A stretch of DNA of 64,000 nt from Vogesella sp. LIG4 (GTDB lineage Bacteria; Pseudomonadota; Gammaproteobacteria; Burkholderiales; Chromobacteriaceae), in NCBI RefSeq assembly GCF_900090205.1, contig NZ_LT607802.1, forward strand, positions 2,700,106-2,764,105. Direction: 5' to 3'. Positions 1 through 64,000 of the stretch are shown here, piece after piece. Position numbers and translations under genes: made by a program. The notes under the pieces were generated by a model. That model ran no database searches and was not told the DNA's origin. It saw nothing but the letters and a program-made list of their open reading frames with translations. Position 1 is the stretch's first letter. Every line of letters starts with the position of its first letter.

Positions 1-326
1 TCGGCTGCCTTGCTCATCTGCACCGTGGCGACAATGTTCTTGCGATCCTCGCTCACTTTTACCGCGGTCACTTCGCCAATATCCACATCCTTGTACTTGA
101 CGCGCGTCTTGCCCGCTTCCAGCCCCTCGGCGTTGCGGAAGGTGATGGTGATGGCGGGCCCGCGCGACAGGATGGCGTGCACGGCCAGGTAGCCTCCGAT
201 CAGCGCGGCCACCACCGGAATCAGCCACACCAGCGACGGCGACCAGCGCTGCCGTGTTACCAGCAGCGCCTGCGGCAGCTCCGGCGGCACGGGTTCTTGC
301 GGCGCATCGTCACGTTTGTCAGTCAT
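1..326 (-). CDS. pqiB: PqiB/MlaD-family protein, N-terminal part (cut by window edge)
   Basis: Only the first ~108 codons are in the window. A short acidic, proline-rich cytoplasmic start is followed by one transmembrane segment (about residues 33-52, running through LVWLIPVVAALIGG) and the start of an MCE/MlaD domain (ITFRNAEGLEAGKTRVKYK). In E. coli PqiB is a multi-MCE protein bridging inner and outer membranes for lipid transport and envelope stress. The ATG overlaps the stop of the upstream PqiA-like gene by 8 nt, so the two are translationally coupled. Family assignment is strong; the remainder of the protein is unseen. Confidence 0.85.
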   Translation of the reverse strand, partial: MTDKRDDAPQEPVPPELPQALLVTRQRWSPSLVWLIPVVAALIGGYLAVHAILSRGPAITITFRNAEGLEAGKTRVKYKDVDIGEVTAVKVSEDRKNIVATVQMSKAA

Positions 327-960
327 TCTTTTCCTCTATCGGGTCCCAGATGAGCCTGGGGTCGAAGCACATGGCGGACAGCATGGTGAGCACCACCACG
401 GCGCCGAAAGCCATGGCGCCCGGGCCGGCCTTGATGCTGGCCAGCGACTGCAGCTGCACCAGCGACACCAGCAGCGCTACCACATAGATATCCAGCATTG
501 ACCACGGGCCGATGATTTCCAGCAGCCGGTACAGCCGCGTGCGTTGCCGGGGCGCCCAGTTCGAGCGGCACTGCACGGTGATCAGCAACAGCAACATGGC
601 CAGAATCTTGAGCAGCGGCACCAGCACGCTGGCGGTGAACACCACCAGCGCCAACGGCCAGGAACCGCTTTGCCATAGAAATACCACACCGCTCATGATG
701 GTGTCGTTCTGCGTGCCGGACAGCATGGCGGTTTCCATGATCGGCAGCAGGTTGGCCGGCAGATAGCAGATAACCGCCGCCAGCAAAAAGGCCCAGGCGT
801 ATTCCACGCTGCGTTTCTTGCGCGGCCGCACTTCAGCCCCGCAGCGCGGGCACAGCGCCGCTTCGTCCCGGCTCGCGTTCGTCCCTTGGCACAACAGGCC
901 GCAAGCGTGGCAATGCCAGCAGCCATGCGCGGCGGCGGAGTTCAGCGGATAGTGCGACAT
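319..960 (-). CDS. pqiA: PqiA-family membrane protein (second half-size copy)
   Basis: A 213-residue protein with an N-terminal zinc-ribbon-like region (CWHCHACG then CPRCGAE) and about four hydrophobic helices, as in one PqiA domain. E. coli PqiA is about twice this length and carries two such domains; here they are two separate genes. I chose the ATG at 960 because GGGAG lies about 10 nt upstream; a GTG at 978 is an alternative. It overlaps the preceding pqiA-like gene and pqiB, making a tight three-gene pqi operon, presumably delivering lipid substrates to the PqiB tunnel. Confidence 0.85.
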   Translation of the reverse strand: MSHYPLNSAAAHGCWHCHACGLLCQGTNASRDEAALCPRCGAEVRPRKKRSVEYAWAFLLAAVICYLPANLLPIMETAMLSGTQNDTIMSGVVFLWQSGSWPLALVVFTASVLVPLLKILAMLLLLITVQCRSNWAPRQRTRLYRLLEIIGPWSMLDIYVVALLVSLVQLQSLASIKAGPGAMAFGAVVVLTMLSAMCFDPRLIWDPIEEKND

Positions 961-2787: not shown

Positions 2788-2796
2788 TTGGCCGCA
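2788..2796 (+). repeat. Intergenic copy of the TTGGCCGCA motif
   Basis: One of about 50 exact copies in the window of a 9-mer with preferred context GTTGGCCGCAAG. This one follows the uppP terminator hairpin. See the whole-window finding for the other positions. Confidence 0.6.
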
Positions 2797-4374: not shown

Positions 4375-5265
4375 TTACCAGCGCTGCTGCGCAAACCGCG
4401 CCACCAGGAAGTCCAGCAGCGCCCGCACCGCCGGCGACAGGTGGCGGCGCGACGGATACAGCGCGTAGATGCTCATCTGCGGCGGCTGCCAGTCCGGCAG
4501 TACCGGTAGCAGCCGGCCATCCTGCAGCAGGGCGCTGGCAAGGTAAGTGGGTTGCAGGCTGATGCCGCCGCCGGCCAGCGCCGCGTGCAGCAGCACGGTG
4601 GCGTCGTTGGCGGTGAGGCGGGTGGCCACGCTCACCGTCGCCCGTTCCTCACCGCGCTGGAACTGCCAGCTGCTGCGGCCAACGTTGCTGTGGCCCAGGC
4701 AGCGGTGGCCGGCCAGCTCCGCCGGGGCGTGCGGTGTGCCTGCCTGCGCCAGGTAGGCGGGGCTGGCCACCAGCACCGAGTCGCACAGCGCCAGCGGGCG
4801 GGCGATCAGCGCCGGGTCCGGCTCGCTGCTGATGCGTATCGCCAGGTCGATGCGCGCCTCCACCAGGTTGAGGGTGGCATCGCCCACGTTCAGGTCCAGC
4901 TTCAGCTGCGGGTGCAGCGCCAGGAAGTCCGCCAGCGCCGCCGCCAGGTGGGCGTGGCCGAAGGACATGCTGCTGGTGAGCCGCAGCTGGCCGCGCAGGC
5001 CGCCGCCGGCCGGCGCCACTTCGTCTTCCACCTCCGCCACCAGCGCCAGCATCTGCAGGCAGCGGCGCAGCGCCTGCTCGCCGGCATCGGTCAGCGTGAC
5101 GCTGCGGGTCGTGCGCTGCAGCAGCCGCGCACCCAGCCATTGTTCCATCTCGGCCACGTAGCGCGTCACCATGGCGCGCGACATCTGCAGCCGCTCGGCG
5201 CTGGCGCTGAAGCTGCCGCTGGCGGCCACGTCGGCGAATACCCGCATGGCGGTGACTCTGTCCAT
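4375..5265 (-). CDS. LysR-family transcriptional regulator
   Basis: 296 residues. Helix-turn-helix in the first 60 (FSASAERLQMSRAMVTRYVAEM), followed by an effector-binding domain. The subgroup mark RTTRSVTLT is present. It diverges from the MBL-fold/DsbA-like gene pair beginning at 5382, and a dyad at 5304-5324 lies between them, so it probably regulates that pair and itself. Confidence 0.9.
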   Translation of the reverse strand: MDRVTAMRVFADVAASGSFSASAERLQMSRAMVTRYVAEMEQWLGARLLQRTTRSVTLTDAGEQALRRCLQMLALVAEVEDEVAPAGGGLRGQLRLTSSMSFGHAHLAAALADFLALHPQLKLDLNVGDATLNLVEARIDLAIRISSEPDPALIARPLALCDSVLVASPAYLAQAGTPHAPAELAGHRCLGHSNVGRSSWQFQRGEERATVSVATRLTANDATVLLHAALAGGGISLQPTYLASALLQDGRLLPVLPDWQPPQMSIYALYPSRRHLSPAVRALLDFLVARFAQQRW

Positions 5266-6245: not shown

Positions 6246-6937
6246 AGGCCTCCCTGCATTACTACTACGACCCGCTGTGCGGCTGGTGCTACGGTGCCGC
6301 GCCGCTGCTGGCCGCCGCCAGCCAGGTGCCGGGCCTGCAACTGGTATTGCACGCCGGGGCGATGATGAGCGGCCCCAACCGCCAGCCGGTAAGCGCCCAG
6401 CTGCGCCAGTACGTGATGACGCACGATCAGCGCATCCACCAGCTTACCGGCCAGCCGTTTGGCGATGACTATTTCCATGGTCTGCTGCTGGATAACAGCG
6501 CGGTGTTCGACAGCACGCCGCCGACGCTGGCGATCCTGGCGGCCGAGGCGCTGGGGATGGACGGGCTGACCATGCTGCATCGCCTGCAGCAGGCGCATTA
6601 CGTGGAAGGGCAGCGCATCGCCGAGCCGGCGGTGCTGCAGCAGCTGGCGCAGGAACTGGGGCTGGACGGCGCGGCCTTCGCTGCCGAATACCAGCACCAG
6701 CAGGGCGAGTTCGCCGCACACGTTGGCCGCAGCCACCGCGACATGGCCGCGCATGGCCTGCGCGGCTTCCCCTCGCTGCTGCTGGAGCTGAACGGCCGCC
6801 TGCAGCGGGTGGAACTGTCGCCGTACCTGGGCAAGCCGGAGGCGTTTGCCGGTTATCTGCAAGGCTTGCTGGCGGGTGCCGCCGGTATGGCAGAGGCCGA
6901 TGCGCCGTTCTGCACGCCGGATGGTTGCGAGGGTTGA
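6239..6937 (+). CDS. DsbA-family thioredoxin-fold protein
   Basis: 232 residues, without a signal peptide. The start YYYDPLCGWCYGAAPLL carries a CGWC active site, and HGLRGFPSLLLEL supplies the cis-proline region. This matches the cytoplasmic DsbA-like group (COG3531/FrnE-like), thought to act as dithiol oxidoreductase or isomerase. Its ATG lies inside the end of the MBL-fold gene, so both are co-transcribed and probably controlled by the divergent LysR protein. Substrate unknown. Confidence 0.85.
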   Translation: MVKASLHYYYDPLCGWCYGAAPLLAAASQVPGLQLVLHAGAMMSGPNRQPVSAQLRQYVMTHDQRIHQLTGQPFGDDYFHGLLLDNSAVFDSTPPTLAILAAEALGMDGLTMLHRLQQAHYVEGQRIAEPAVLQQLAQELGLDGAAFAAEYQHQQGEFAAHVGRSHRDMAAHGLRGFPSLLLELNGRLQRVELSPYLGKPEAFAGYLQGLLAGAAGMAEADAPFCTPDGCEG

Positions 6938-7116: not shown

Positions 7117-7145
7117 AAAAAACCGCCAGCCTGGCGGTTTTTTTT
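7117..7145. terminator. Bidirectional intrinsic terminator
   Basis: A GC-rich stem (ACCGCCAG/CTGGCGGT) is flanked by A6 on one side and T8 on the other, between the convergent DsbA-like and cysteine hydrolase genes. It fits termination for both strands. A TTGGCCGCA motif copy overlaps its right edge. Confidence 0.85.
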
Positions 7146-7166
7146 GCGGCCAACGTGCGCTGCGGC

Positions 7167-7790
7167 TTACTGCGCCACCGCCAGCAAATGCGAGTCCAGC
7201 ACGTCCTCGCTGGCGGCCACTGGCTGGCCGGCCTGTACCGCGGCGATCCAGTCGTCGGTACTGGCCACCGCGGCAAAGCCGGTCTGCATCACCACGGTGA
7301 ATACGCGGTGGATCTCCTCGGCGCTGGCGCTGCCGGCGCGGTTGCGGTAGGGCAGCGAGCCGCTGGCATCATGCAGCAGCTCCACCTGCCAGCCGTCGTG
7401 GCTGGCGTGCAGCACGGTGGCGGCATCGCAGTTGTGGGTCATGTAGCCGACGATGCTCAGCGTGTCGATGTCACGCGCACGCAGCCAGTCGGCCAGATCG
7501 GTGCCGGTAAAGCAGCTGGCTTCCTGCTTGCTGATCAGGTGGTCGTGCGGGCGCCCGGCGATGCTGGGGTGCAGCGCGGCGCCGTGGCTGCCTTCGGCAA
7601 AGATCGGCGTGCCGGGCGGGGCGATGTGCTGCACCACCACCACCGGGATGCCGGCGGCGTTGGCCGCATCCATGGCGCGGCCAACGTTGGGCAGGGTGAT
7701 GGCCGGGTCCGGGTAGCTGATGCCCAGCTTGCCGGTGAAGTATTCGTTCTGTACATCGATGACGATCAGCGCGCGGCGCGGTGTGTTCAT
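7167..7790 (-). CDS. Cysteine hydrolase, isochorismatase family
   Basis: 207 residues with the family catalytic triad visible: Asp in LIVIDVQNEY (near residue 12), Lys in LISKQEASCF (near 88) and Cys in YMTHNCDAAT (near 120). Members hydrolyse small amides or vinyl ethers (nicotinamidase, isochorismatase and others); the substrate cannot be told here. It is divergent from a GlxA-type AraC regulator. A GGAAA ribosome site precedes the ATG. Confidence 0.9.
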   Translation of the reverse strand: MNTPRRALIVIDVQNEYFTGKLGISYPDPAITLPNVGRAMDAANAAGIPVVVVQHIAPPGTPIFAEGSHGAALHPSIAGRPHDHLISKQEASCFTGTDLADWLRARDIDTLSIVGYMTHNCDAATVLHASHDGWQVELLHDASGSLPYRNRAGSASAEEIHRVFTVVMQTGFAAVASTDDWIAAVQAGQPVAASEDVLDSHLLAVAQ

Positions 7791-8862: not shown

Positions 8863-9480
8863 TCAGGCCGGCAGCGCAATTGCCTCGCCGTTGAGACTGA
8901 ATGCCATGCCCTGCGGCCCGAAGCGCATCTGCGTGTCGGTATGCAGGCTGGCCTGCAGCGCACGGTAGTACTCGAACACCGCCATGCGCTCGCTGTCGCT
9001 GCGCGCCGCGTACCACGCCCTGGTGTAGGCAACGCCGGCTTCCAGGCTGGGGATCTGGCTGGCCAGCGCGTTGACGTTGTGGATGGCCAGCGACAGCTTG
9101 TCGTCGCCGTTGATCAGCTTTTCGATGGCGGCGGCGTCCGGGCGGTCGCCGCGTACCGTGATGTAGCCGGTGTTGGGGTCGCTTTCCACCAGCTCGAACG
9201 CCGGGCTGGCGCTGATGCCGGCCGCGGCCAGTTTTTGCTGCAGCCGCGTCTGCACATCGGCAGCCATGCGGCCAACGTTTTCACGCGTGGGCAGCATCAG
9301 CGCCTGTTCCTGCTCGGTGAGCGGCCTGTTGCCGCCGCTGGCGGCTGGGGTAACGGTATTGGCCGGCGTGCTGCTGGCACTGGCCGTGGCGGCAAAGCTG
9401 CCGCCGTTGCCGGTAGTTTTTGCCTGCGCGCTGCCGCCCAGGGCGGGGCTGGCCGGCGTAATCTGGCTGCCGATCTGCAT
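8863..9480 (-). CDS. Hypothetical protein with low-complexity N-terminus
   Basis: About 205 residues that I do not recognise. Residues 1-50 are rich in Ala, Ser, Thr and Gly, without signal peptide or membrane helix. The rest is a normal globular sequence (RENVGRMAADVQTRLQQKL, then FELVESDPNTGYITVRGD). I use the second of two ATGs (9480) because AAGGA is 7 bases upstream; 9483 is possible. Its stop is back to back with that of the GlxA regulator. The style recalls the unknown protein at 50529-51569, but no shared domain is evident. Confidence 0.6.
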   Translation of the reverse strand: MQIGSQITPASPALGGSAQAKTTGNGGSFAATASASSTPANTVTPAASGGNRPLTEQEQALMLPTRENVGRMAADVQTRLQQKLAAAGISASPAFELVESDPNTGYITVRGDRPDAAAIEKLINGDDKLSLAIHNVNALASQIPSLEAGVAYTRAWYAARSDSERMAVFEYYRALQASLHTDTQMRFGPQGMAFSLNGEAIALPA

Positions 9481-9549: not shown

Positions 9550-10956
9550 TCAGCCCTCGTTGGCCGCAGGGCGCGCCAGGGCGGCACCGGCATGCGGGTG
9601 CAGGCGGCGGAACTGCAGTGCCGACAGCATGGCCAGCACGCCCATGATCACGAAGGACCAGGAAAAATCGCTGACCTGCAGCGTGGCATGTGCCTGTATG
9701 CGGGCAATGCCCTGCAGCGCAAAGGCTGCCACGGTCACCCCCAGGCCGGAGGCCAGCTGCATCGCCACGCTGGACAGGGTGGAGGCATGGCTCATGCCGC
9801 CGTGGTTGATGTCGGCGAAGGCAATGGCGTTCAGGCTGGTGAACTGCAGCGAGCGCATGCAGCCGCCCAGCAGGAAGGTGGCCAGCATCAGCCAGTGCGG
9901 GCTGTGCGCATCGAACAAGCCGTAGCCGGCGAAGGACAGGCCGCACAGCAGGCTGTTCACCAGCAGCACCTGGCGGAAGCCGAAGCGCTGCAGCACGTGG
10001 CCGACAATGGTCTTCATGAACATGGCGCCCAGCGCGGTGGAGCAGGTGAGCAGGCCGGACTGGAACGGTGTCAGCCCGAAGCCCAGCTGCAGCATCAGCG
10101 GCAACAGGAAGGGCGTGGAGCCCATGCCGACGCGGAACAGGAAGCCGCCGATCAGGCTGGCGTGAAAGGTGGGAATGCGCAGCAGCGACAGGTCCAGCAG
10201 CGGGTGCGGGTGGCGGCGCGCATGCCAGGGGTAGACGGCCAGCAGCAGGCCGCCGGTAATGGCCAGCACGCTGGACCAGCCTACCGACAGCATATGCTTG
10301 CCTTCGGTAGCCAGCCCCAGCATGGCCAGCGACAGCCCCAGCCCGGTGAGCGCAAAACCCATCCAGTCCAGCGGCGGCACCTTGTCGTCACGCAGGTTTT
10401 CGATATAGCGCCCGGCCAGCACCAGCCCCAGGAGGCCGATGGGCAGGTTGATCAGGAAAATCCAGCGCCAGTGGAAATAGGTGCTGATGAAGCCACCCAG
10501 CGGCGGCCCCACCACCGGGCCCAGCAAGGCCGGAATGGTGAGATAGCTCATCGCCCGCACCAGCTCTTCTTTCGCCGTGGTGCGCAGGATCACCAGCTTG
10601 CCCACCGGCACCATCATCGCGCCGCCGATACCCTGCAGGAAACGCGCCAGCACGAAGCCTTCCAGGCTGTGGCTGAACGCGCACAGCAGCGAGCCGGCGC
10701 TGAACACCACGATGGCGGCGCGGAACACCCGCCGCGCACCGAAGCGGTCGGCCATCCAGCCGCTGACCGGAATGAACACCGCCAGGCTTACCAGGTAGGA
10801 AGTCAGCGCCAGTTTGAGGGCAATCGGGTCCACCCCCAGGTCGACGGCAATGGCCGGCAGCGAGGTGGCAATCACGGTGGCGTCCATGTTTTCCATGAAC
10901 AGGGCGGTAGCGATGATCAGCGGCGTGAGCATGCTGCGGGACAGGCGGAACGGCAT
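9550..10956 (-). CDS. MFS multidrug transporter, DHA2 (EmrB/QacA-like) family
   Basis: 468 residues with many hydrophobic helices. It carries the DHA2 start (LIIATALFMENMDATVIATSLP), motif A after TM2 (GWMADRFGARRVFR) and antiporter motif C-like GPVVGPPLGG. Members use proton motive force to expel drugs or toxic metabolites. The frame runs upstream to 11157, but homology begins at the ATG at 10956. The operator or regulator is unknown; the nearby LysR/SDR pair is separated from it by a strong hairpin. Confidence 0.9.
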   Translation of the reverse strand: MPFRLSRSMLTPLIIATALFMENMDATVIATSLPAIAVDLGVDPIALKLALTSYLVSLAVFIPVSGWMADRFGARRVFRAAIVVFSAGSLLCAFSHSLEGFVLARFLQGIGGAMMVPVGKLVILRTTAKEELVRAMSYLTIPALLGPVVGPPLGGFISTYFHWRWIFLINLPIGLLGLVLAGRYIENLRDDKVPPLDWMGFALTGLGLSLAMLGLATEGKHMLSVGWSSVLAITGGLLLAVYPWHARRHPHPLLDLSLLRIPTFHASLIGGFLFRVGMGSTPFLLPLMLQLGFGLTPFQSGLLTCSTALGAMFMKTIVGHVLQRFGFRQVLLVNSLLCGLSFAGYGLFDAHSPHWLMLATFLLGGCMRSLQFTSLNAIAFADINHGGMSHASTLSSVAMQLASGLGVTVAAFALQGIARIQAHATLQVSDFSWSFVIMGVLAMLSALQFRRLHPHAGAALARPAANEG

Positions 10957-11130
10957 GGTGGGCACTTGCGGACAGTCAGGTTGGCAATTTAACAGATATT
11001 TAGATTTCTGATTGTCACGCGAGGTAATAGTTTCCCGGCCAAATGTACAGGTGGGTAAATATTCCCATGCACGCGGCGCGCAGCGGGAACAGGGCGGCGG
11101 CACAGCGTTGCCGGCGCCACCATCAGCCTC

Positions 11131-11162
11131 AAAGGTTGGCCGCAAGCCTGCGGCCAACCTTT
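11131..11162. terminator. Terminator-like hairpin built from two inverted GTTGGCCGCA motifs
   Basis: A perfect 14-bp stem (AAAGGTTGGCCGCA and its complement) with a 4-base loop, ending 5 bases from the SDR stop. Each arm is one copy of the abundant motif. In Neisseria, inverted pairs of uptake sequences serve as terminators; this has the same geometry. Minus-strand transcripts of the SDR gene would end here. Confidence 0.75.
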
Positions 11163-11167
11163 GCGCC

Positions 11168-11923
11168 TTACAGCATCATGCCGCCGGATACCTCGATGCG
11201 CTGTGCGTTCACCCAGCGGTTGTCGTCCGACAGCAGCGCGGTGATGGCGCCGCCGATGTCGTCCGCCTCACCGACGCGGCCCAGCGCGGTCTGGCTGGCC
11301 ACGAAGCGGTTCACCTCCGGGTTGTCGCGCACCGTACCGCCGCCAAAATCGGTGGCGATGGCGCCGGGGGCGATGGTGTTGACGGCAATGCCGCGCGGCC
11401 CCAGCTCCTTGGCCAGGTAGCGGGTCAGCACCTCCACCGCGCCCTTCATCGCCGCGTAGGCGGCATAGCCCGGCAGCGCGAAGCGGGCCAGGCCGCTGGA
11501 CAGGTTGACTATGCGCCCGCCGTCGGCCAGCAGCGGCAGCAGCGCCTGGGTGAGGAAGAACATGCCCTTGAAGTGGGTGTTCAGCAGCAGGTCGAACTGC
11601 GCCTCGCTGGTGTCGGCAAAGGCGGCGTGCACGCCCATGCCGGCGTTGTTCACCAGGAAGTCGAAGCTGTCGCGCTGCCAGTGCTCGCGCAGTGCTGCGC
11701 GCACGGCGTCGGCAAAGCCGGCATGGCTGGCCACCTGGCCCACGTCCAGCTGCAGCGCCAGCGCCTTGCCGCCCAGTGCTTCGATGGCGGCGATGACTTC
11801 GTCGGCGGCGGCGCGGTTGCTGTGGTAGGTGAAGATGATGTCGGTGTTGCGGGCGGCCAGTTTCAGTGCGGTGTTGCGGCCCAGGCCGCGGCTGGCGCCG
11901 GTGATGATGGCGATCTTGCGCAT
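11168..11923 (-). CDS. SDR-family oxidoreductase
   Basis: 251 residues of classical short-chain dehydrogenase: nucleotide site TGASRGLG (8-15), NNAG (near 92), catalytic Ser in NLSSG and YAAMK (YxxxK), then the PGAIATD stretch. It uses NAD(P)H to reduce or oxidise an unknown carbonyl or alcohol. AGGAG precedes the ATG. A LysR gene diverges from it and a dyad lies between them, so that regulator probably controls it. Confidence 0.9.
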   Translation of the reverse strand: MRKIAIITGASRGLGRNTALKLAARNTDIIFTYHSNRAAADEVIAAIEALGGKALALQLDVGQVASHAGFADAVRAALREHWQRDSFDFLVNNAGMGVHAAFADTSEAQFDLLLNTHFKGMFFLTQALLPLLADGGRIVNLSSGLARFALPGYAAYAAMKGAVEVLTRYLAKELGPRGIAVNTIAPGAIATDFGGGTVRDNPEVNRFVASQTALGRVGEADDIGGAITALLSDDNRWVNAQRIEVSGGMML

Positions 11924-12054: not shown

Positions 12055-12969
12055 ATGGAGCAATTGGACGCAATGCGCGTATTCCAGCGGGTAGCGGAGC
12101 TGGGCAGCTTCATTCGCGCCAGCGAAAGCCTGGGCCTGCCGCGCGCCACGGTGTCGGATGCGGTGCAGCAGCTGGAAAGCCGGCTCGGCACCCGGTTGCT
12201 GCACCGGACCACACGGCGGGTGCAGCTTACCCAGGACGGGCAGCTGTTCCTGGAGCGCAGCAGCGACCTGCTGGCGGATTTCGACGAGCTGGGCGCCATG
12301 TTCCAGCAACAGCAGGCGGCGGTCAGCGGCCGGCTGCGGGTGGATATGTCCAGCGGCATCGCCCGCAATATGGTGCTGCCACGGCTGCCGGCCTTTCTTG
12401 CCGCCCATCCCGGGTTGCAGCTGGAGTTGTCCAGCACCGACCGCCGCGTGGACCTGGTGCGTGAAGGCTTCGACTGCGTGGTGCGGGTGGGCGAGGTGCG
12501 CGATGCCAGCCTGATCTGCCGGCCGCTGGGGCGCTTTGCGCTGGCCAACTGCGCCAGCCCCGCCTACCTGGCGGCGCACGGCACGCCGCAGACGCTGGAC
12601 GATCTGGCCAGCCACAGCATGGTGCATTACGTGCCGCAGCTGGGTGGCAAGCCGGATGGCTTCGAATACCTGGATGCGGCGGGGCAGCGCTGCTTTGCGG
12701 CGGTGGCCGGCCGGCTGGTGGTGAACAGCGTCGACGCCTACCTGGGGGCCTGCCTGGCCGGCATGGGCATCATCCAGCTGCCGCGCGTGGCGGTGGCGGC
12801 AGCGTTGGCCGCAGACCAGCTGCGCGAAGTCTTGCCGCAGTGGCAGGCCGCGCCGATGCCGGTAAACCTGCTGTATGCCAACCGCCGCCACCAGCCGCGA
12901 CGGGTGCAGCTGTTCATGAACTGGCTGGACGAGGTGATTCGCCCGTATCTGCTGCCGGTAGCGGGCTGA
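12055..12969 (+). CDS. LysR-family transcriptional regulator
   Basis: 304 residues. The helix-turn-helix is in the first 60 (FIRASESLGLPRATVSDAVQQL), then HRTTRRVQLT and an effector domain. I take the ATG at 12055, with GAGGCG upstream, over the ATG at 12043. It diverges from the SDR gene, its likely target, and ends at a strong hairpin. Confidence 0.9.
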   Translation: MEQLDAMRVFQRVAELGSFIRASESLGLPRATVSDAVQQLESRLGTRLLHRTTRRVQLTQDGQLFLERSSDLLADFDELGAMFQQQQAAVSGRLRVDMSSGIARNMVLPRLPAFLAAHPGLQLELSSTDRRVDLVREGFDCVVRVGEVRDASLICRPLGRFALANCASPAYLAAHGTPQTLDDLASHSMVHYVPQLGGKPDGFEYLDAAGQRCFAAVAGRLVVNSVDAYLGACLAGMGIIQLPRVAVAAALAADQLREVLPQWQAAPMPVNLLYANRRHQPRRVQLFMNWLDEVIRPYLLPVAG

Positions 12970-13855: not shown

Positions 13856-13937
13856 GTAGGGCGGGTTGGCCGCAGGCCATACCCGCGCGATGTTGGCAGC
13901 TTGCGCGGGTATGAACCGCTGGTTCAACCCGCCCTAC
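13856..13937. repeat. Palindromic interspersed element (GTAGGGCGGGTTG arms)
   Basis: An 82-base element with terminal arms GTAGGGCGGGTTG and exact complement, plus an inner pair CATACCCGCGC/GCGCGGGTATG. It is built like the element at 7019-7096. One TTGGCCGCA copy overlaps its left arm. Confidence 0.7.
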
Positions 13938-14013
13938 GCGGTGCCACATGCGGGCTGGCAAAGCACCGCCTGCCCACCAGCGGCAGCTGGCTTGCGGCCA
14001 ACCTTGCAGGCAA

Positions 14014-14060: not shown

Positions 14061-15299
14061 TTACTGCAGCTCCAGCGCCAGCAGTTCTTCCACCGTCTGG
14101 CGGCGGCGGATCAGGCGGTCGGTATCGCCGTCCACCAGCACCTCGGCGATCAGCGGGCGGGTGTTGTAGTTGCTGGACATCGACGAGCCGTAGGCGCCGG
14201 TGTCATGGAAGATCAGCAGGTCGCCCACCCGCGCCGCCGGCAGCGGGCGCGGCAGTACCACGCCGCCATCGCCCTGGGTGAATACGTCGCCGGATTCACA
14301 CAGCGGGCCGGCTACCACGCAATCCTGTTCCGCCTGCTGCACGCCGTCGTGCGGCACCACGCTGATGTGGTGGTAGCTGCCGTACATCGACGGGCGCATC
14401 AGTTCGTTGAAGCCGGCATCCACCAGCACGAAATGGTTGCGGCCAACGTTCTTGGTGGCGCGCACCTCGGCCAGCAGGTTGCCGGATTCGGCCACCAGGT
14501 AGCGGCCCGGTTCGATCTCCAGCGCCAGCGGGTGGCCGATCAGCGCCGCCGCTTCCTGGCGCGCGGTATCCCACAGCCCGAAGTAGTGGCCGGTGTCCAC
14601 CGTGGCATCGCCGTCGCGGTAGGGAATCGACAGCCCGCCGCCGGCGGAGATGGCGTGCAGGTCCTGGCCGGCCTGCTTCACCAGCCGCACCAGGTCCACC
14701 ATGGCGCCGCACACTTCCTGCAGGTGGCTGTAATCCACGCCGGAGCCGATGTGCATGTGCAGGCCCACCAGCTGCAGGCCGTGCTGGCGGATCACCGCCA
14801 GTGCCGCCGGCAGGTCGGTGTGCCAGATGCCGTGCTTGCTGTGCTCGCCGCCGGTGTTGGTCTTGTTGCTGTGGCCGTGGCCGAAGCCGGGGTTGATGCG
14901 CAGCCATACGCGGTGGCCGGGCGAGGCTTCGCCCAGCTGGTGCAGCATGTCGATGGAGCCGGCGTTCACCGGAATGCCGTGTTCCACCACCAGCGCCAGG
15001 GTGGGGCGGTCGATCAGGTCGGCGGTGAACACGATGCCGGACGGCTCGCCGGCGGCGTCGTAGCCGGCGGCCAGCGCGCGCAGGATTTCGCCGCGCGATA
15101 CCGCATCCACTTTCACGCCCTGTTCGCGCATCAGCAGCAGGATGTGCACATTGCTGCATGCTTTCTGCGCAAAGCGGATGGTGTCGAACTGGCGCAGCGC
15201 GGCGATGCGCTCGCGGATCACCGCGGCGTCGTAGGTCCACAGCGGGGTGCCGTAGTGCTGGGCCAGTGCGGTGAGGCGGGCGGTGTCTGGGGTCTGCAT
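14061..15299 (-). CDS. lysA: Diaminopimelate decarboxylase
   Basis: 412 residues, the size of E. coli LysA. It decarboxylates meso-diaminopimelate to lysine, the last step of lysine synthesis, using PLP. Visible marks: PLP lysine in RFAQKACSN (near 46), the barrel segment GLHMHIGSG, the glycine loop SAGGGLSIPY, EIEPGRYLV, and the C-terminal CESGD and YNTRP blocks. It diverges from a LysR-type gene that is likely its activator, as with lysA/lysR in E. coli, and ends at a clean terminator. Confidence 0.95.
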   Translation of the reverse strand: MQTPDTARLTALAQHYGTPLWTYDAAVIRERIAALRQFDTIRFAQKACSNVHILLLMREQGVKVDAVSRGEILRALAAGYDAAGEPSGIVFTADLIDRPTLALVVEHGIPVNAGSIDMLHQLGEASPGHRVWLRINPGFGHGHSNKTNTGGEHSKHGIWHTDLPAALAVIRQHGLQLVGLHMHIGSGVDYSHLQEVCGAMVDLVRLVKQAGQDLHAISAGGGLSIPYRDGDATVDTGHYFGLWDTARQEAAALIGHPLALEIEPGRYLVAESGNLLAEVRATKNVGRNHFVLVDAGFNELMRPSMYGSYHHISVVPHDGVQQAEQDCVVAGPLCESGDVFTQGDGGVVLPRPLPAARVGDLLIFHDTGAYGSSMSSNYNTRPLIAEVLVDGDTDRLIRRRQTVEELLALELQ

Positions 15300-16319: not shown

Positions 16320-16491
16320 CGCTCCACGCTTGAAAAGCCGTTGGCCGCATGCTGGCGCAGCCTGCAGTTAACGCTATGGTTTCTTTGTGATTTTATTTAA
16401 AATTAGAGGCGGTGAAGGCGGCTTTAAACGGAATTACGGCCGATTATTGCTGCCGATAATAAAGAATAATTTAAAAATCGAGAGAGAAGTC

Positions 16492-19706: not shown

Positions 19707-19715
19707 TTGGCCGCA
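19707..19715 (+). repeat. Intergenic TTGGCCGCA motif copy (AAAGGTTGGCCGCAAGC context)
   Basis: Full-context copy between the convergent binding-protein and MFS genes, 16 bases past the first stop and next to the MFS terminator. Confidence 0.6.
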
Positions 19716-23797: not shown

Positions 23798-23901
23798 TCC
23801 GGCGCAGGGTTGGCCGCAAACCGGTAAAGCGATGCCCCATGCCAATATCAACAAATGGCCGGAAATTATTGATAAGTGGATATTGAGAGCACGACAAATT
23901 G

Positions 23902-25423: not shown

Positions 25424-25432
25424 TGCGGCCAA
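25424..25432 (-). repeat. TTGGCCGCA motif copy between convergent stops
   Basis: The complement of AAAGGTTGGCCGCAAGC fills nearly the whole 30-base gap between the diguanylate cyclase and LysR stops. Confidence 0.6.
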
Positions 25433-42582: not shown

Positions 42583-42757
42583 GAGATCAAGAGCGCGAAT
42601 GTCAGCGTGAAATTTGGAAAGTAATGAAAGGCTTGGACTTGCAGAGCCCGGGCTTGCTGAGCATGGCTATTGTGAGCTTGATTGGGATGTGGGAGAGGAA
42701 GAGGCTGCGGTGCTGTGGCCAATGTTGGCCGCACAAGGAAATGTCGAGCAGAAACGC

Positions 42758-42785: not shown

Positions 42786-42793
42786 GTTTCTAC

Positions 42794-42869: not shown

Positions 42870-42871
42870 AA

Positions 42872-42896: not shown

Positions 42897-42908
42897 CTGA
42901 GGTGTTGG

Positions 42909-42984
<76 letters not shown>

Positions 42985-43014
42985 ACAGACGCTGCGTCGT
43001 TCAACGCGGAGCAC

Positions 43015-47691: not shown

Positions 47692-49056
<1,365 letters not shown>

Positions 49057-49934: not shown

Positions 49935-49943
49935 TGCGGCCAA
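49935..49943 (-). repeat. Intergenic TTGGCCGCA motif copy
   Basis: In AAAGGTTGGCCGCAGG context on the minus strand, just beyond the DUF2325 stop. Confidence 0.6.
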
Positions 49944-50528: not shown

Positions 50529-51569
50529 TCAGGCGCTCAGGTCCACCTGCGAGATCATCCCGACGCTGCCATTCTCGTTCAGGTAGACGCCGGCCTTGCG
50601 CAGCTGGCCCTGGGTGGCGCCCTGGCTGTCGGCAAAGCGGAAGCCGGCATCGGTGCTGGGCAGCAGCAGCGCGCCAATGCCCAGCTCGGACAGCGGGGTG
50701 AGCTTGCTCTGGCCGTCCGCGGTCTGCTGCCATAGCTTGAGGTTGGCAAATGCGGGGTCGCCTTCGTCGATGGCGCCGTTGTGGTCGCTGTCCAGCTTCG
50801 CCAGCTCGGCAAAGCCGTTGCCGCTTTGCGGGCCGAACAGTTCGCTGTTGTCGTCCACCTTGCCGTTGCCGTTGTTGTCCTGCACCAGCCAGCCGCCGTT
50901 GCCGGGCATCGGCATGGCGTCCGGCTTACCGTCGCCGTTCACGTCGAAACTGACGCTGGCGCCGGACAGCGCACCGGCGTCGTTGCCCAGTGTCAGCATC
51001 AGCGGGTCGTGCGTGGCGGCGCCAAAGTTCAGCGTCTGGCTGCTGTGAATATCCAGGCTGCGCTGCAGGCTGACATCCAGCTGGAAGCTGAACTGGCGCC
51101 CGTCGCCGGTGGTGATGCTGCCGCTGGCGGAAAACTGCAGCGACTCCTGTTCCTGGTAGTGGAAGTCCTGCTGCACACGCATCGCCGTTTGCGGAGCGTT
51201 GCTGCCTGGCGCTGCGGTGGTTGGAGGAGGGGGCGTGGCGCTGCTGTTGCTGGCGGCATCGTTGGCCGCAGGCTGGCCGCCGGTAAGCTGGCGCAGGTCC
51301 TGCAGCGAAATATGGATGCCGAAGGCCTTTTCCAGGATGCCGCGCAGCAGCGCCAGTTCGGGTGTCAGGCCATCGTTGTTGTCGGCTGCGTCACCCAGGC
51401 TGGCGGCCTTGCCGGCGTCGCTGAGGGTGACGGTGTCGGTGCTGGCAGCGGCTGGGCTGGCGGTGCTGGCCGCGCCCTCCTGCCAGATGGCAATGCTCTG
51501 CTGCACGCTGCTGGATTGCTGGTACTGATACTGGGTGCCCAGCGCCAGCGACATGGTGTCTACTTTCAT
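50529..51569 (-). CDS. EF-hand-like calcium-binding repeat protein of unknown function
   Basis: 346 residues, no signal peptide. N-terminal low-complexity part (Gln/Ser/Ala), a linker rich in Pro/Thr, a beta-rich middle (QFSFQLDVSLQRSLDIHSSQ), then calcium-loop-like repeats DVNGDGKPDA, DNNGNGKVDDNSELFG and DSDHNGAIDEGD. This resembles proteins seen near type I-secreted or surface factors; export is not shown. AGGAGG with 7-base spacing precedes the ATG. Confidence 0.75.
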   Translation of the reverse strand: MKVDTMSLALGTQYQYQQSSSVQQSIAIWQEGAASTASPAAASTDTVTLSDAGKAASLGDAADNNDGLTPELALLRGILEKAFGIHISLQDLRQLTGGQPAANDAASNSSATPPPPTTAAPGSNAPQTAMRVQQDFHYQEQESLQFSASGSITTGDGRQFSFQLDVSLQRSLDIHSSQTLNFGAATHDPLMLTLGNDAGALSGASVSFDVNGDGKPDAMPMPGNGGWLVQDNNGNGKVDDNSELFGPQSGNGFAELAKLDSDHNGAIDEGDPAFANLKLWQQTADGQSKLTPLSELGIGALLLPSTDAGFRFADSQGATQGQLRKAGVYLNENGSVGMISQVDLSA

Positions 51570-54355: not shown

Positions 54356-54365
54356 TCGCTCCTGC

Positions 54366-54387
54366 GGCCAACCTTTGGCGGTTGGCC
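54366..54387. terminator. Hairpin containing an inverted pair of motif cores
   Basis: GGCCAACC-TTTGGC-GGTTGGCC, 8-bp stem, 10 bases after the NlpC stop. The left arm belongs to an exact TTGGCCGCA copy, the right arm to a near copy (GGTTGGCCGGCAAG). Confidence 0.5.
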
Positions 54388-54703: not shown

Positions 54704-55943
54704 GTGCACTTAAATTTCGAGGCTTTCATCGGCCTGCGCTATCTGCGCGCGCGCCGTCGCAACGGTTTCATTTCCTTCATTTCCCTGCTGTCGGTCATCG
54801 GCATCGCCCTGGGCGTGGCGGCGCTGATCGTGGTGCTGTCGGTAATGAACGGCTTTCAGCAGGAGATCCGCGGCCGCATGTTGTCGGTGGTGTCGCACCT
54901 GGAAGTCTCCAGCTATGAAGGCCGCATCGCCGGCTGGCAGCCGCTGCTGGGCAAGCTGGTGCAGCAGCCGCACGTGCTGGCGGCGGCGCCCTATGTCAAT
55001 GCGCAGGGGCTGTTGTCCAGCGGCGGTAACGTACGTGGCGCCATGGTGCGTGGCGTGGAGCCGCCGGCCGAGAGCAAGGTGGTGAGCCTGGGCAAGGAGA
55101 TGCTGCGCGGCAAGCTGGAATCGCTGCAGCCAGGCAGCTACAACATCGTGCTGGGGGTGGAGCTGGCGCGTGCGCTTGGGGTGGAAGTGGGCGACAAGGT
55201 GACGCTGATCACCCCGCAGGGCAATGTCACTCCGGCCGGCATGATGCCGCGCCTCAAGCAGTTCACCGTCGGCGGCATCTTCAAGGCCGGCATGTTCGAA
55301 TACGACGCCTCGCTGGCAATGATCTCGCTGCGCGACGCGCAGGTGCTGTTCCGCCTGGGGCAGGATGTGTCCGGCGTACGCCTGAAGCTGGACGACCCGC
55401 TGCTGGCGCCGCGCATGAAGGCGGAACTGGCGCCGGTGCTTGCGGCCAACCAGATCGCCAGCGACTGGACCGACATGAACGCCAACTACTTCCGCGCGGT
55501 GCAGATCGAGAAACGCATGATGTTCATCATCCTGACGCTGATCGTGGCGGTGGCAGCCTTCAACCTGGTGTCCACCCTGGTGATGGTGGTAACCGACAAG
55601 CAGGCCGACATCGCCATCCTGCGCACCCTGGGCGCGAGCCCGGCCAGCATCATGAAGATCTTCGTGATCCAGGGCTCGGTGGCCGGGGTGCTGGGCACCA
55701 TCGCCGGCGTGGGCGGCGGCCTGCTGCTGGCCATCAACCTGAGCAGCGTGCAGCATGCCATTGAAAGCATCATCGGCGCGCGGCTGCTGTCCAGCGATGT
55801 GTACATGATCGACTTCCTGCCGGTGGACGTGCAGCCCGCCGATGTCACCACCATTGCGGTGATCTCGCTGCTGCTGTCGCTGCTGGCCACGATTTACCCG
55901 AGCTGGCGCGCAGCGCGCACCCGCCCGGCGGAGGCGCTGCGCT

Positions 55944-57943: not shown

Positions 57944-58558
57944 ATGCAACGACTCGCGGTGATCGATGACGACCTGGCGGTGCGCCAGTCGCTGCTGTGG
58001 CTGCTGGAATCGCCCAGCCTGGCGGTAAGCGGCTACGACAGCGCCGAAGCCTTCCTGGCCGACAGCGCTGCGGCCAACTTCAACTGCCTGATCGTCGATC
58101 TGCGCATGGGCGGCATGAGCGGCATCATGCTGCTGGAAAAACTGGCCGCCTGGCCGTACAGCCCACCGGTGCTGATGCTCACCGCGCATGGCGACGTGCC
58201 GCACGCGGTGGCGGCATTCAAGCAGGGGGTGGTGGATTTCCTGGAAAAACCGTTCGACGACCAGCACCTGCTGACACTGGTGGAAGAGTGCCTGGCGCGC
58301 GACAGCGAGTCGCGCGAGCGCTTCGTGCGCCGCCGGCAGGTTGCCGCCGCGCTGCAGACGCTCACCGAGCGCGAGCGCGAGGTGATGCAGCTGATCCTGG
58401 CCGGGCTGCTCAACAAGCAGATTGCCGAGGAGCTGGCCATCAGCATGAAGACGGTGGAAGTGCACCGCGCGCGGGTGTTTGACAAGATGGGCGTGAAGTC
58501 GGCGGTGGAACTGGCCGGGCTGATCGGCATCCTGGACGACAAGGGCGGCAAGGCATGA
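57944..58558 (+). CDS. FixJ-like response regulator
   Basis: 204 residues: receiver domain (VIDDDLAVRQSLL; phospho-acceptor Asp52 in IVDLRMGGMSG; Lys in FLEKPF) and a C-terminal LuxR/NarL helix-turn-helix (LTEREREVMQLILAGLLNKQ, SMKTVEVHRARVFDKM). No kinase gene is directly adjacent. Overlaps nudB (ATGA). Confidence 0.93.
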   Translation: MQRLAVIDDDLAVRQSLLWLLESPSLAVSGYDSAEAFLADSAAANFNCLIVDLRMGGMSGIMLLEKLAAWPYSPPVLMLTAHGDVPHAVAAFKQGVVDFLEKPFDDQHLLTLVEECLARDSESRERFVRRRQVAAALQTLTEREREVMQLILAGLLNKQIAEELAISMKTVEVHRARVFDKMGVKSAVELAGLIGILDDKGGKA

Positions 58559-58998
58559 AGCCGCCCAAGCAACCGGTGTCGGTGCTGGTGGTGATCCATA
58601 CCCCCGACCTGCAGATACTGCTGATCGAGCGCGCCGACCGCCCCGGCTACTGGCAGTCGGTCACCGGCAGCCGCGAGGGCGACGAGGCGCTGATCGACAC
58701 CGCGCGCCGCGAAGTGGCGGAGGAAACCGGCATTGTTGCGGCCAACCTTTGCGACTGGCAGCAGCAGAACGTCTACGAAATCTACCCGCAGTGGCGCCAC
58801 CGCTATGCGCCGGGCGTCACCCACAACACAGAGCACGTGTTCAGCCTGGCCCTGCCCGCGCCGCAGCCGGTACGGCTGGCCGAGGGCGAGCACCTGGCCT
58901 GGCAGTGGCTGCCATGGCAGCAGGCCGCGGCGCTGGTGTTCTCTCCTTCCAATGCCGAAGCCATATTCGATTTGGCGAAACGTACCGGTTTGGCATAG
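58555..58998 (+). CDS. nudB: Dihydroneopterin triphosphate diphosphatase NudB
   Basis: 147 residues. Nudix box GSREGDEAL...REVAEETGI (about 39-61), NudB-like start PVSVLVVIHTPDLQILLIER and GVTHNTEHVFSLALP. Removes pyrophosphate from dihydroneopterin triphosphate in folate synthesis. Contains a TTGGCCGCA copy (inverted) just after the box. Confidence 0.92.
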   Translation: MKPPKQPVSVLVVIHTPDLQILLIERADRPGYWQSVTGSREGDEALIDTARREVAEETGIVAANLCDWQQQNVYEIYPQWRHRYAPGVTHNTEHVFSLALPAPQPVRLAEGEHLAWQWLPWQQAAALVFSPSNAEAIFDLAKRTGLA

Positions 58999-59854: not shown

Positions 59855-62800
59855 ATGAAGCAGACAGTCAGTCAGACCGCCGCCATCGGGCGGGCGATCC
59901 AGCTTACCGTGCTGCTGCTGGGCTGCATGCAGCTGGTGGCGTCCGGGCTGCTGTTGTGGTCCGGTTACCAGGGCTACCGCCAGGCGCGCGACCATGCCTT
60001 GCTGAACCAGGCCAACCTGGGGCTGTTCAGCGCCACCCGCCTGCTGGCGCGGGAGCACGAACTGACCATGGACAGCATCCTGGCACGTGATCACGCACCG
60101 GCCGGGCTGCCGGCGGAGCTGGCCGCCAGCAGGCGGCAGGTGGATGCCGCCTTCCGTGCGCTGCTGCCGGAGGCGGATGCCCAGCGCCAGCAGCACAGCA
60201 CAGTGCAGCTGGAGCGGCTGCAGCACTACCTGCAGCAGCTGGCACGGCAACGGCAGGAGGTGGATGCGCTGCCGCTGCAGGCGGTGCGCGCCTCCGGCGA
60301 GAGCGAGCTGGCCGGCTGGAACCATGGCATCGGGCCGCTGTTCGACGTGCTCGACAAGCTGCTGCAGCAGGACAGCTTCTGGTTGTCCGACGAAGCCGAC
60401 CCGGTGCTCAACCGCATGGCGGTGCTCAAATACGAAGCCTGGAGCCTGGGCTATATGCTGCAGGCCGAATCCGCCGCCCTGCAGCAGCGTGCCTACCTTG
60501 CCCACCAGCTCAACAGCAGCGAGGAATACGAACTGATGCGGCGGCAGGAGAAAGGCGTGCTGCTGCTGGAAAGCCTGCGGCGCGGCATCCCCTTTGTTGA
60601 CGCGCCGGCACTGCAGCAGTCGCTGCTGCGTTTCAGCGACGCGGCGGACGAGCTGCACGCGGCCACCGCGCGCCAGCTGCAGGTGCTGGGCAAGCCCGGC
60701 GCGGCGCCGCAGTCCAGCGCGCAATACCGGCAGATCAATGCCCGCCTCAGCCGCGAGCTGGGTACCCTGTTCGGCAAGTTGAGCGAGCTGATGGCACAGC
60801 GGGTAGATGCGCACAAGACCCGCTACCAGCTGCAGCTGCTGCTGCACAGCGGCGTGTCGCTGTTGGCGCTGGGGCTGTACTGCTACCTGTGGCTGCGCAT
60901 GCGCGGCAGCATTCTGTGGCCGTTGCGGCGCATGCAGCGGGTGCTGGATGCCGCCGGCGAGGCCATCCTCACCCTGGATGCCGAAGGCCGCATCGTTGCG
61001 GCCAACCGTGCCGCCAGCGAATTGTTCGCCTGTACACCGGCCTGGCTGGCAGGCCTGGCCGCCCGCCGTCTGCTGGCCTCCACCGCCCTGGACGACAAAT
61101 GGCTGCCGGCGGCGGAGCAGGCGGCGGTGGCATGGGAGGAGCAGGCGCGCCGCGCCGACGGCAGCCGCTTTCATGCCGCGCTGTCGCTCACCCCGCTGCC
61201 GGAGGACAGCGACGGCGTGGACCGTTTCCTGCTGATGGTGCGCAACGAGCAGGACCGTCATGAGGCGCAGCAGTCCCTGCAGAGCAGCATGCGGCTGCTG
61301 GCGGCCATCCACCACATGGAAAGCCTGCTGTTCGCGCGCCAGCCGCGGCACAGCGTGTACCAGGAAATACTGAACAGCCTGCTGCAGTACTGTCGGTCCG
61401 AACAAGGCTTCATCCTGGCGTTGACGGCCGACATCGCCGGCCAGCCGGCGGGTTTCCAGTTGCAGGCCATTACCGAGGACAGCCAGCTGCCGCCGTGGGC
61501 GGAGGCCTGGCTGGAGCAGCCGGCCCAGGTGCTGCCGCAGCGGCAGGGCGATGCCTGGGTGCAGAACGGCTGGAGCCTGCTGCCGGTGCAGTTGAATGCG
61601 CGCACTTTGCTGCTGGCCGGGGTGTGCGGTGTGGACATCAGCCATGCGCAGAGCGTGGAGCTGCAACCGCTGCTGGCCGCCTGCGGCAGCATCGTCAGCT
61701 TCTACCTGGAGGAGGACCGCCGCCGGGCATCCGAGCAGGAGTTGCGCCAGGTGCTGCAGATGGAGGAGGCGATCTACGCCGCCTCGCCGATCGGGCTGCT
61801 GCGTGTCGATGGCGAATTCCGCATCCTGCGCAGCAATGCCGCCGCCTGCCGGCTGTTCGGCCGTAGCGAGGCGCAGCTGGCTGGCAGCACGCTGCGCACC
61901 CTGCTGGCCGACGATGACGCCTGGCCGGTGTTGCAGGCGGGGCTGCAGCGGGCGCGCGACGACGCGCGGCTGCAGGGGCTGGAAGTCGAATTCGCCACCG
62001 GCGAGCAGCAGCGGCTGTGGGCGCTGTTGAGCGGGCAGCGCCTGTTGCCGGACACCCCGCTGCCGGACCTGATGCTGGCCTGCCTGGATATCTCCGACCG
62101 GCGGGCGGCGCAGCAGGCCGCGCTACAGGCGCTGGACATGAGCGCCGCGGCGCGCCGCCAGCTGGAGGTGGCGATCGAATCGCTGCCGGAAGCGTTTGCC
62201 TTTTTCGATACGCAGGACCGGCTGGTGCTGTGCAACCGGCGCTATGCCGAGCTGGTCGGCTCCGAACAGCCGCCGGTGGGGCTGCAGGGCTGGAGCTTTG
62301 CCGCGCTGCTGCAGGCGGGGCTGGAAGCCGGCGAGCACCCGGAAGACCGCTTTTCCCACGCGCAATGGCAGGAGGAGCGGCTGCGGCGCCACGCCAGCGG
62401 GCAGGCGGCGTTCCAGCTCAGCGTGGGCGAGCGCTGGTACCAGCTGAGCGACCATGCCATACCGGGTGGCGGCTCGGTGTGCATCTATGCCGACATCACC
62501 GAATTGAAACAGCAGGAAATGGACCTGCTGCTGGCGCGCGACCAGGCGGAGCAGGCCAACCGCACCAAGAGCGCCTTCCTCGCCACCATCAGCCACGAGA
62601 TCCGCACCCCGATGAACGGCGTGCTGGGCATGCTGGAACTGCTGGCGTTTACCCGGCTGGATGCCGAGCAGCGCGATCATATCGACACCATCCAGGAATC
62701 GGCGCAGACCCTGTTGCGGCTGATCGACGACATTCTGGATTTTTCCAAGATCGAAGCCGGCAGGCTGGATATCCTGCCGGAGCCCACGTCGGTGCCGGTA

Positions 62801-64000
62801 CTGCTGCAGCGGGTGTACCAGCTGTACAGCGAGAACGCCGCGCGCAAGGGGCTGAAACTGCTGCTGGACATCGACCCGGCGGTGGCCGGCCTGCTGCTGG
62901 TGGACCCGCTGCGGCTGCGGCAGATCCTGCAGAACTTCTGCAGCAATGCGGTGAAGTTCACCGAGCAGGGCGAGATCGTGCTGCGGGTGAGCTGCCTGGA
63001 CGAGGATGCCGTGCAGCAGACGCTGCGCTTCGCGGTGCAGGACAGCGGCATCGGCATCGCGGCGGAAAACCTGGCGCGGCTGTTCGAGCCGTTCACCCAG
63101 GCGGAAAGCACCACCACGCGGCGCTTTGGCGGCACCGGGCTGGGGCTGGCCATCTGCCGGCGTCTGGCGCACCTGATGGGTGGGCGGGTCCGGCTGGAAA
63201 GCATGCCAGGGCAGGGCACCACGGCGATGCTGGATATCGCCCTGTCGCGCAGCGAACAGCCGCTGCCGCCGCAAGCGCTGCCGGAGCAGGCGCTGCGCCA
63301 GCCGGCCAGGCCGCAGCAGCTGCCGGTGCTGCTGGCGGAAGACAACCCCACCAACCGCAAGCTCATCAGCAAGCAGTTCGAGCTGCTGGGCTACCCGGTG
63401 GTGCTGGCCGAGGACGGCATAGCGGCGCTGCACCTGTGGCAGCGGCAGCCGTTCGCGCTGATTCTTACCGACTGCCACATGCCGCGCATGGATGGCTACG
63501 AGCTGGCCAGCACCATCCGCTACTACGAGGATGCACTGGAAGACGCGCGCCATATTCCCATCATCGCCTGCACCGCCAACGCCAGCCAGGAGGAGGTGAA
63601 CCGCACCCGGGAGGCCGGCATGGATGATTTCCTGCCCAAGCCGCTGGGGCTGGAGGCGCTGTCGGCGATGCTGGAAAAATGGCTGCACCACAGCGGTGGC
63701 CCGGCTGTGGCGGCTGCCGCGCCGATGACGCCGGCTGCGGCCAACGTGCCGGTGCAAGACGACCCGGCCGAGCCGGTGCTGGACCGCGAGGTACTGGCGG
63801 TATACAGCAATGGCGACTGGCCGGTGGAGCGCGACATCCTGGCCGATTTCCTGCACAGCAACGACGAAGACATGCAGGCGCTGCAGCAGGCGGTGGCTGC
63901 GGCCAACCTGGAGCAGGTGGTGTGGGCAGCGCACCGCATCAAGGGTGCCAGCCGCATGGTGGGCGCCGCGCAGCTGGCCACGGCGGCCGCGGCGCTGGAA
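59855..64000 (+). CDS. Hybrid (unorthodox) sensor histidine kinase, incomplete at window end
   Basis: Open frame with no stop to the edge, at least 1382 residues. TM1 about 15-37, long periplasmic helical region to about 325, TM2 about 328-346, PAS-like domain ([20 protein letters not shown]), GAF-like stretch, two more PAS regions ([40 protein letters not shown]), HisKA with His914 in [13 protein letters not shown], ATPase ([14 protein letters not shown]), receiver with Asp1206 in [11 protein letters not shown], and HPt with His1360 in [11 protein letters not shown] multistep phosphorelay kinase of BarA/BvgS type, next to the REC protein. Confidence 0.93.

Follow-up and report, generated by a model that had tools for sequence, protein, structure and literature searches.

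A candidate DNA uptake sequence of Vogesella and a ComP-like minor pilin as its putative reader

Introduction

DNA uptake sequences (DUS) of the Neisseriaceae number about one thousand to several thousand exact copies, lie on both strands, differ as dialects between clades, are enriched outside genes and form facing pairs that fold into hairpins. A short word with a comparable copy number and strand distribution, and with dialects of its own, is analyzed here in Vogesella sp. LIG4. The word, the 9-mer TTGGCCGCA, was noticed in a 64-kb stretch (C1:2700106-2764105, termed the window) of a one-contig, 4.147-Mb genome, and the original prediction, made from the letters, took it for a candidate DNA-uptake-type signal. 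The genome-wide count, the counts in relatives, strand symmetry and a ComP-like pilin all support this assignment. In its 12-mer form AGGTTGGCCGCA (10-mer body GTTGGCCGCA), the word is very probably the uptake sequence of the genus, with the ComP-like pilin as its candidate reader and with copies built up by biased import.

The hosts of the words described here are the Chromobacteriaceae and relatives, whereas the DUS dialects belong to the Neisseriaceae. Laribacter, Lutiella and Pseudogulbenkiania are kin of the Chromobacteriaceae. Excerpts of Frye 2013 (PMC3630211) report five genomes, one from each of these three genera and two of Chromobacterium, as being without obvious DUS and describe DUS-type self-recognition as arising after the split from Chromobacterium violaceum. 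Excerpts of PMC12061091 and PMC3868556 were also drawn on.

The Vogesella word resembles the uptake signal sequences (USS) of the Pasteurellaceae in being a genome-wide tag of self DNA. USS consist of a core with spaced AT-rich flanks, whereas the flanks of the Vogesella word are flat and hold no spaced AT tracts at 330 sites, and we know of no sequence likeness between the two. HIP1 of cyanobacteria is likewise a very frequent short word. It is a palindrome; the Vogesella word is not, though overlapping dyads occur.

Results

The word is abundant, exact and strand-symmetric

TTGGCCGCA is present in 3018 copies genome-wide (1535 forward and 1483 reverse) compared with 49 copies (22 and 27) of the word read backwards. 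Expected counts, context and placement were determined in a 464-kb sample of this genome composed of 20 regions of 20 kb and the window. The sample contained 330 copies against 10.2 expected from a third-order Markov model, the greatest excess among 9-mers with at least 30 copies. The 10-mer GTTGGCCGCA had 312 copies against 3.3 expected. Its 30 one-letter neighbors summed to 96 against about 103 expected, with mild rises for C at the first base (12 versus 3.3) and G at the last (17 versus 4.7).

The context predicted from the window, AAGGTTGGCCGCAAG, holds across the 330 sites, with frequencies of 0.58 for A-4, 0.55 for A-3, 0.53 for G-2, 0.95 for G-1, 0.36 for A+9 and 0.54 for G+10. In letters this is A A G G TTGGCCGCA A G, with a weak C at -5 and a weak C or G at +11. 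No conserved flank was detected beyond -5/+11 at these sites. Sorting of the copies by the sign of the regional GC skew gave 161 versus 169, which indicates no orientation bias relative to replication.

Genes were called with a crude hexamer model. By these calls, 126 of the 330 copies lie wholly or partly outside genes, where 13.3% of the sample lies, and the word density is about 2.0 per kb outside genes and 0.5 per kb inside. Coding copies occur in all six frames, three of which are favored. Word density correlates with GC content (Spearman 0.54); no further meaning is given to this correlation because the word itself is GC-rich.

Paired words show two recurring geometries: facing pairs that produce hairpins, and pairs that overlap back to back. 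Excerpts of Frye 2013 (PMC3630211) report overlapping dyads in Simonsiella too. The 20-base palindrome TGCGGCCAACGTTGGCCGCA consists of two back-to-back overlapping words and was found 7 times in the sample, in L010, L011, L014, L015, L019 and L028.

The window holds exactly 50 copies, 24 on the plus strand and 26 on the minus strand, in agreement with the predicted figure of about 50. Forty-five of the predicted positions were at most 2 nt away from an actual copy; five were displaced by 7 to 19 nt and are corrected here (7669 to 7660, 9248 to 9267, 12815 to 12805, 21470 to 21461, and 60990 to 60997). The chance expectation had been put at about one copy, which is somewhat too low: 100 dinucleotide-preserving shuffles of the window gave a mean of 2.3 and a maximum of 6. 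G precedes TT at 46 of the 50 sites and 15 are not fully within gene calls, consistent with the predicted "most" and "about a third intergenic". Coding copies were said to read mostly LAA or AAN, and xAAN or LAA was read at 27 of 34 readable coding sites; VGR or IGR was read at 5 of the 34. Proximity to terminators, described as frequent, is suggested for the one pair examined, the facing words at 11136 and 11149, for which a strong hairpin is predicted.

Related genera carry sister words

NCBI taxonomy places Vogesella in the Chromobacteriaceae and Crenobacter in the Neisseriaceae; the family used here (f1) includes both Chromobacterium and Crenobacter. GTTGGCCGCA is present in 1871 to 2895 copies in each of 13 Vogesella genomes, and the 48 remaining genomes of the family have 8 to 58. 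Across 399 genomes sampled evenly from the order, the six of the genus had 1871 to 2895 copies and the other 393 at most 52. The check in relatives that the original prediction called for also revealed sister words.

A blind k-mer count over 80 to 120 kb per other genus, plus 20 kb of genome G010, was used to find them. GTTGGCCGAG is over-represented in g5 (55 versus 0.9), and GTTGGCCGAA in g6, g7, g9, g10 and one g2 genome, G010. Whole-genome counts of GTTGGCCGAA were 2168 in G037, 1851 in G045, 1368 in G010, 1245 in G038, 1104 in G046, 893 in G048, 579 in G036 and 183 in G047. The counts were 77 and 78 in the two g5 genomes, 8 to 34 in g1 and at most 62 in the remaining genomes. With one or two genomes sampled from each, no strong word of the DUS kind was found in g3, g4 or g8, or in the g2 genome G002. 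Identical ComP-like proteins identify G034, which bears the GAG word, as Crenobacter cavernae and G036, which bears the GAA word, as Crenobacter sp. SG2303; the wordless G017 and G044 correspond to Chromobacterium paludis and Paludibacterium yongneupense.

The two bases preceding the 10-mer were compared in 11 samples. The most frequent base at -2 is A in all but G010, and at -1 it is G in 8 samples and C in the other three. Within the order sample, AGGTTGGCCG is high in this family only, with 972 to 1267 copies in g1, 485 in G038 and 442 in G010; the other 391 order genomes have at most 64.

G010 alone among ten g2 genomes bears the GAA word, the others having 11 to 36 copies, and its ComP is separate from other g2 ComPs in the tree. 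Either G010 is a misplaced genome or the word was lost in the rest of g2. Over-represented palindromes were noted in G039 (L212-L216; CGAATTCG, 26 versus 5.1, and CGATATCG, 28 versus 7.9) and in G045 (L233-L236; GCTTAAGC, 22 versus 1.5).

Among the matches listed in a contig scan with RadA as bait, one close relative, L087 from the D8 metagenome-assembled genome (MAG), has 26 words in 21 kb, and the other 79 loci have at most 4 copies each. No report of this word or system was found among the matches listed from open-licence PMC papers, and the literature matches to the words in that set are, by title, apparently due to chance.

The words resemble DUS dialects

The original prediction described a resemblance to Neisseria uptake sequences in density and use, with a different word. 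The likeness in use stands, and the words found in sister genera point to the Vogesella word as a diverged relative of DUS. AG-simDUS AGGCTGCCTGAA (excerpts of PMC7371117) and AG-mucDUS are also 12-mers with AG at -2 and -1 and a 10-mer body. AGGTTGGCCGAA is identical at 9 of 12 positions to AG-simDUS and to AG-mucDUS as described in excerpts of PMC3630211. Random 12-mers reach 9/12 with any of seven dialects, wadDUS being left out, in 0.2% of cases in register and in 0.9% on any strand with shifts of at most 2. The Vogesella 12-mer alone reaches 8/12, for which chance is 5-6%. Common descent of DUS and these words is accordingly likely, not proved.

In Frye numbering, GTTGGCCGAA has the DUS-like bases C+6, G+8, A+9 and A+10, with C instead of T in the middle of the core. 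A at +10, a DUS trait, is present in GTTGGCCGCA and GTTGGCCGAA and absent in GTTGGCCGAG of Crenobacter cavernae. The Vogesella word differs from GTTGGCCGAA by A-to-C at +9, the same change that distinguishes King3DUS from kingDUS in excerpts of PMC3630211.

Words are retained at orthologous sites

Site history was followed around RadA in nine genomes, giving 24 ordered comparisons with small numbers and non-independent species. Words at orthologous sites were retained above other 10-mers in all 24. Between close species, 7/8, 9/11 and 10/10 aligned words were retained against backgrounds of 25, 63 and 64%. Several lost sites changed at the final base only.

A ComP-like minor pilin is encoded in all 13 Vogesella genomes

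The original prediction proposed looking for a ComP-like minor pilin, and a candidate with an open reading frame is encoded in 13 of 13 Vogesella genomes. The LIG4 copy falls short of the Pfam threshold, and the pilin was recognized only by comparing pilins across the genus. A profile of 11 run against the PDB placed ComP at the top (1.8e-11), with a geopilin (5.7e-11) preceding the second ComP; a profile of the sister-genus pilin separates ComP clearly. Neisserial ComP (2m3k, 2nba, 5hz7) is also the best fold match, and a stretch ending WPxLP is common to both. The closest named relatives of the LIG4 protein are those of V. facilis (56%) and V. oryzae (54%), and the protein of G055, of the same genus, is identical to the latter over the compared length. 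The pilin is common to all word-bearing genera examined.

ComP loci were taken from 50 of 61 family genomes, three of which (G018, G022 and G040) yielded no sequence; the 11 without a clear or complete ComP match among those listed, including all four of g4, were left out. Two soluble cysteines, 8 to 9 residues apart, are present in 45 of the 47 rows, in which G045 is represented by its neighboring pilin; G000 and G010 have three. A quick tree of 47 rows, for which the program warned of meeting long branches, recovered a Vogesella clade whose SH-aLRT support is 99% and whose inner branch, at 0.91, is the longest. The pattern [FY]K...WPxLP is found in 21/22 word-bearing and 0/24 wordless ComPs, and xN[TVA]D in 22/22 and 2/24, with G045 left out of both counts. 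These patterns are not relied on because the tree needs only five label changes and the G045 ComP has neither. G045 carries two tandem pilin genes (L236:18642-19636) that both match the ComP-like profile.

The locus order in LIG4 is polysaccharide deacetylase, FimT-like pilin, ComP-like pilin, an unknown 122-residue protein, aroB and aroK, followed by pilQ, pilP, pilO, pilN, pilM and PBP1a. Neisserial ComP loci differ from this arrangement, in which aroB and a FimT-like partner stand beside the pilin gene. DprA was found in 13/13 Vogesella genomes.

Two further pilins were rejected as receptors. L003 has the best Pfam ComP_DUS score in LIG4 (72.6 bits), but ComP is absent from its PDB matches at E<=1, which are 24 pilins. 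V. facilis has a 78% relative of it, whereas the nearest proteins in the 12 other Vogesella genomes are only 39-49% identical and no closer than those of g10. The PDB matches of L004 are 23 pilins, again without ComP.

Discussion

Proposed mechanism and points against it

We infer that the ComP-like pilin binds the word and that such binding favors uptake. Exposed as part of the type IV pilus, this minor pilin would bind word-carrying double-stranded DNA, the pilus would retract through PilQ, and a single strand would pass onward through ComEC to DprA and recombination. Mutations to the perfect word would spread and word sites would be repaired from the DNA of relatives. The thousands of exact copies on both strands would exist because word-bearing fragments are imported and recombined more often.

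Several observations weigh against this mechanism. The core at +6 to +8 is CCG in every dialect here and CTG in neisserial DUS; excerpts of PMC3630211 describe CTG as invariant in DUS and as found necessary in N. meningitidis. Taken alone, the LIG4 ComP-like protein reaches 23.8 bits with the Pfam ComP model, short of the cut-off of 27.3. The compared sequences have, in 45 of 47 rows, two soluble cysteines and show no DD region (two disulfides, four cysteines), which is present in neisserial ComP and is distinctive of DNA-binding ComP according to excerpts of PMC4906244. With a CCG core and no DD region, the system is neither a described DUS dialect nor a canonical ComP, yet it probably works like DUS/ComP. 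ComP-like genes are present in the wordless Chromobacterium, Paludibacterium and g2, so the gene alone is no predictor of the word. ComEC was found in 11 of 13 Vogesella genomes and not in G058 or G059, and ComEC and DprA are above the cut-off in 10 of 14 control genomes as well, for example E. coli; these genes therefore say little on competence, which they allow rather than show. The main Vogesella clades have few words in common, with 2/9 and 3/7 aligned as examples, and retention between them ranges from 2/9 (background 13%) to 6/7 (background 18%).

Alternative explanations

The uptake signal could instead be read by the FimT-like pilin encoded beside comP, or by both pilins jointly. FimT binds DNA. 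In the six Vogesella genomes examined, the gene immediately before the ComP-like one encodes a GspH/FimT-type pilin (PF12019); tblastn located it together with aroB in four Vogesella loci, and two further genomes have the FimT-like gene. Among the loci compared, this partner is seen in Vogesella only, whose word departs from the sister genera at the ninth base, the ComP-like pilin is without a DD region, and FimT is involved in DNA uptake in other species (excerpts of PMC8897410). However, tblastn with the Vogesella partner and aroB was empty in 17 loci of 2.0-3.4 kb from other genera, word-bearing sister genera included, though a very diverged partner could escape this search, and the ComP-like pilin is the one common to all word-bearing genera examined. 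The missing partner makes a FimT-like pilin improbable as a general reader, and we consider this alternative unlikely. The FimT/GspH-type gene itself lies at L012:9469-10005, and C..N.K.N.D.QGC is conserved in the five aligned sequences.

It is quite improbable that the words are relics of an ancestral uptake specificity now out of use in Vogesella. No paper showing competence in the genus was found among the matches listed from open-licence papers, as relics would allow, but the words are exact rather than decaying, they persist at orthologous sites between close species, and the ComP-like gene is open in each of the 13 Vogesella genomes.

A binding site for a chromosome-organizing or recombination protein of the Chi, KOPS, matS or nucleoid-protein type would fit the dense, even spread of the word (92 bins of 5 kb with a mean of 3.55 copies and a variance of 3.37). 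Chi and KOPS show a strand bias, whereas the word is strand-symmetric, varies between sister genera and is about fourfold denser outside genes, and such a site is very improbable.

That the word merely results from codon use, restriction-modification or a dispersed repeat element is hardly credible: many coding copies do read LAA or AAN, but the use of all six frames with the highest density outside genes, the flat total of one-mismatch neighbors and the unconserved flanks already contradict it, and restriction sites are typically avoided, the opposite of amplification.

History and significance

For the uptake sequence read by a ComP-like pilin, we tentatively propose a history that may well need revision. 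DUS-guided uptake would predate the split of Neisseriaceae and Chromobacteriaceae, with an ancestral word near AGGTTGGCCGAA and a ComP without the DD region as its reader. Neisseriaceae would later have acquired a CTG core and a DD region, and Chromobacterium would have lost the words and kept the gene. In Vogesella, rapid change of ComP and the gain of a FimT-like partner that assists in reading the word would have accompanied the dialect shift from A to C at +9.

Three CCG-core dialects are found in genomes of seven genera, and the simpler ComP also in Chromobacterium. If the uptake reading is true, the DUS/ComP system is older than described, the genera provide a natural receptor-word series for learning how a pilin reads DNA, and the words are a tag likely to ease laboratory transformation of Vogesella and Crenobacter strains.

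Other features of the window

Table 1. Exact copies of the word TTGGCCGCA and the folded facing pair in window coordinates.
Feature	Position	Strand	Basis
word	2788..2796	+	exact match
word	4674..4682	-	exact match
word	6723..6731	+	exact match
word	7145..7153	-	exact match
word	7660..7668	+	exact match
word	9267..9275	-	exact match
word	9560..9568	+	exact match
word, facing pair arm 1	11136..11144	+	exact match, folding
word, facing pair arm 2	11149..11157	-	exact match, folding
folded stretch, 15-pair intergenic hairpin from two facing words, candidate terminator	11122..11170	-	-32.4 kcal/mol, z -6.1
word	12805..12813	+	exact match
word	13866..13874	+	exact match
word	13993..14001	-	exact match
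word	14438..14446	-	exact match
word	16248..16256	+	exact match
word	16341..16349	+	exact match
word	19707..19715	+	exact match
word	21461..21469	-	exact match
word	21895..21903	-	exact match
word	22085..22093	-	exact match
word	23810..23818	+	exact match
word	25424..25432	-	exact match
word	25811..25819	+	exact match
word	28936..28944	-	exact match
word	30160..30168	+	exact match
word	30782..30790	+	exact match
word	32338..32346	+	exact match
word	32760..32768	-	exact match
word	33741..33749	+	exact match
word	36493..36501	+	exact match
word	36600..36608	-	exact match
word	37440..37448	+	exact match
word	39514..39522	+	exact match
word	39855..39863	-	exact match
word	42725..42733	+	exact match
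word	43272..43280	+	exact match
word	45018..45026	-	exact match
word	45184..45192	+	exact match
word	45601..45609	+	exact match
word	46056..46064	-	exact match
word	47814..47822	-	exact match
word	48459..48467	-	exact match
word	49935..49943	-	exact match
word	51262..51270	+	exact match
word	54363..54371	-	exact match
word	55441..55449	-	exact match
word	58069..58077	-	exact match
word	58737..58745	-	exact match
word	60997..61005	-	exact match
word	63736..63744	-	exact match
word	63898..63906	-	exact match

The stretch 36700-42990 of the window has a low GC content (0.555-0.575 in 4-kb bins) and ends in two tRNA genes (42797-42869 and 42912-42984). It encodes an Mrr-type restriction endonuclease, a Swt1-like HEPN protein adjoining a DUF5343 protein, and a subtilase-family match, and looks like a tRNA-side defence island. 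The words at 37440, 39514 and 39855 are retained within it.
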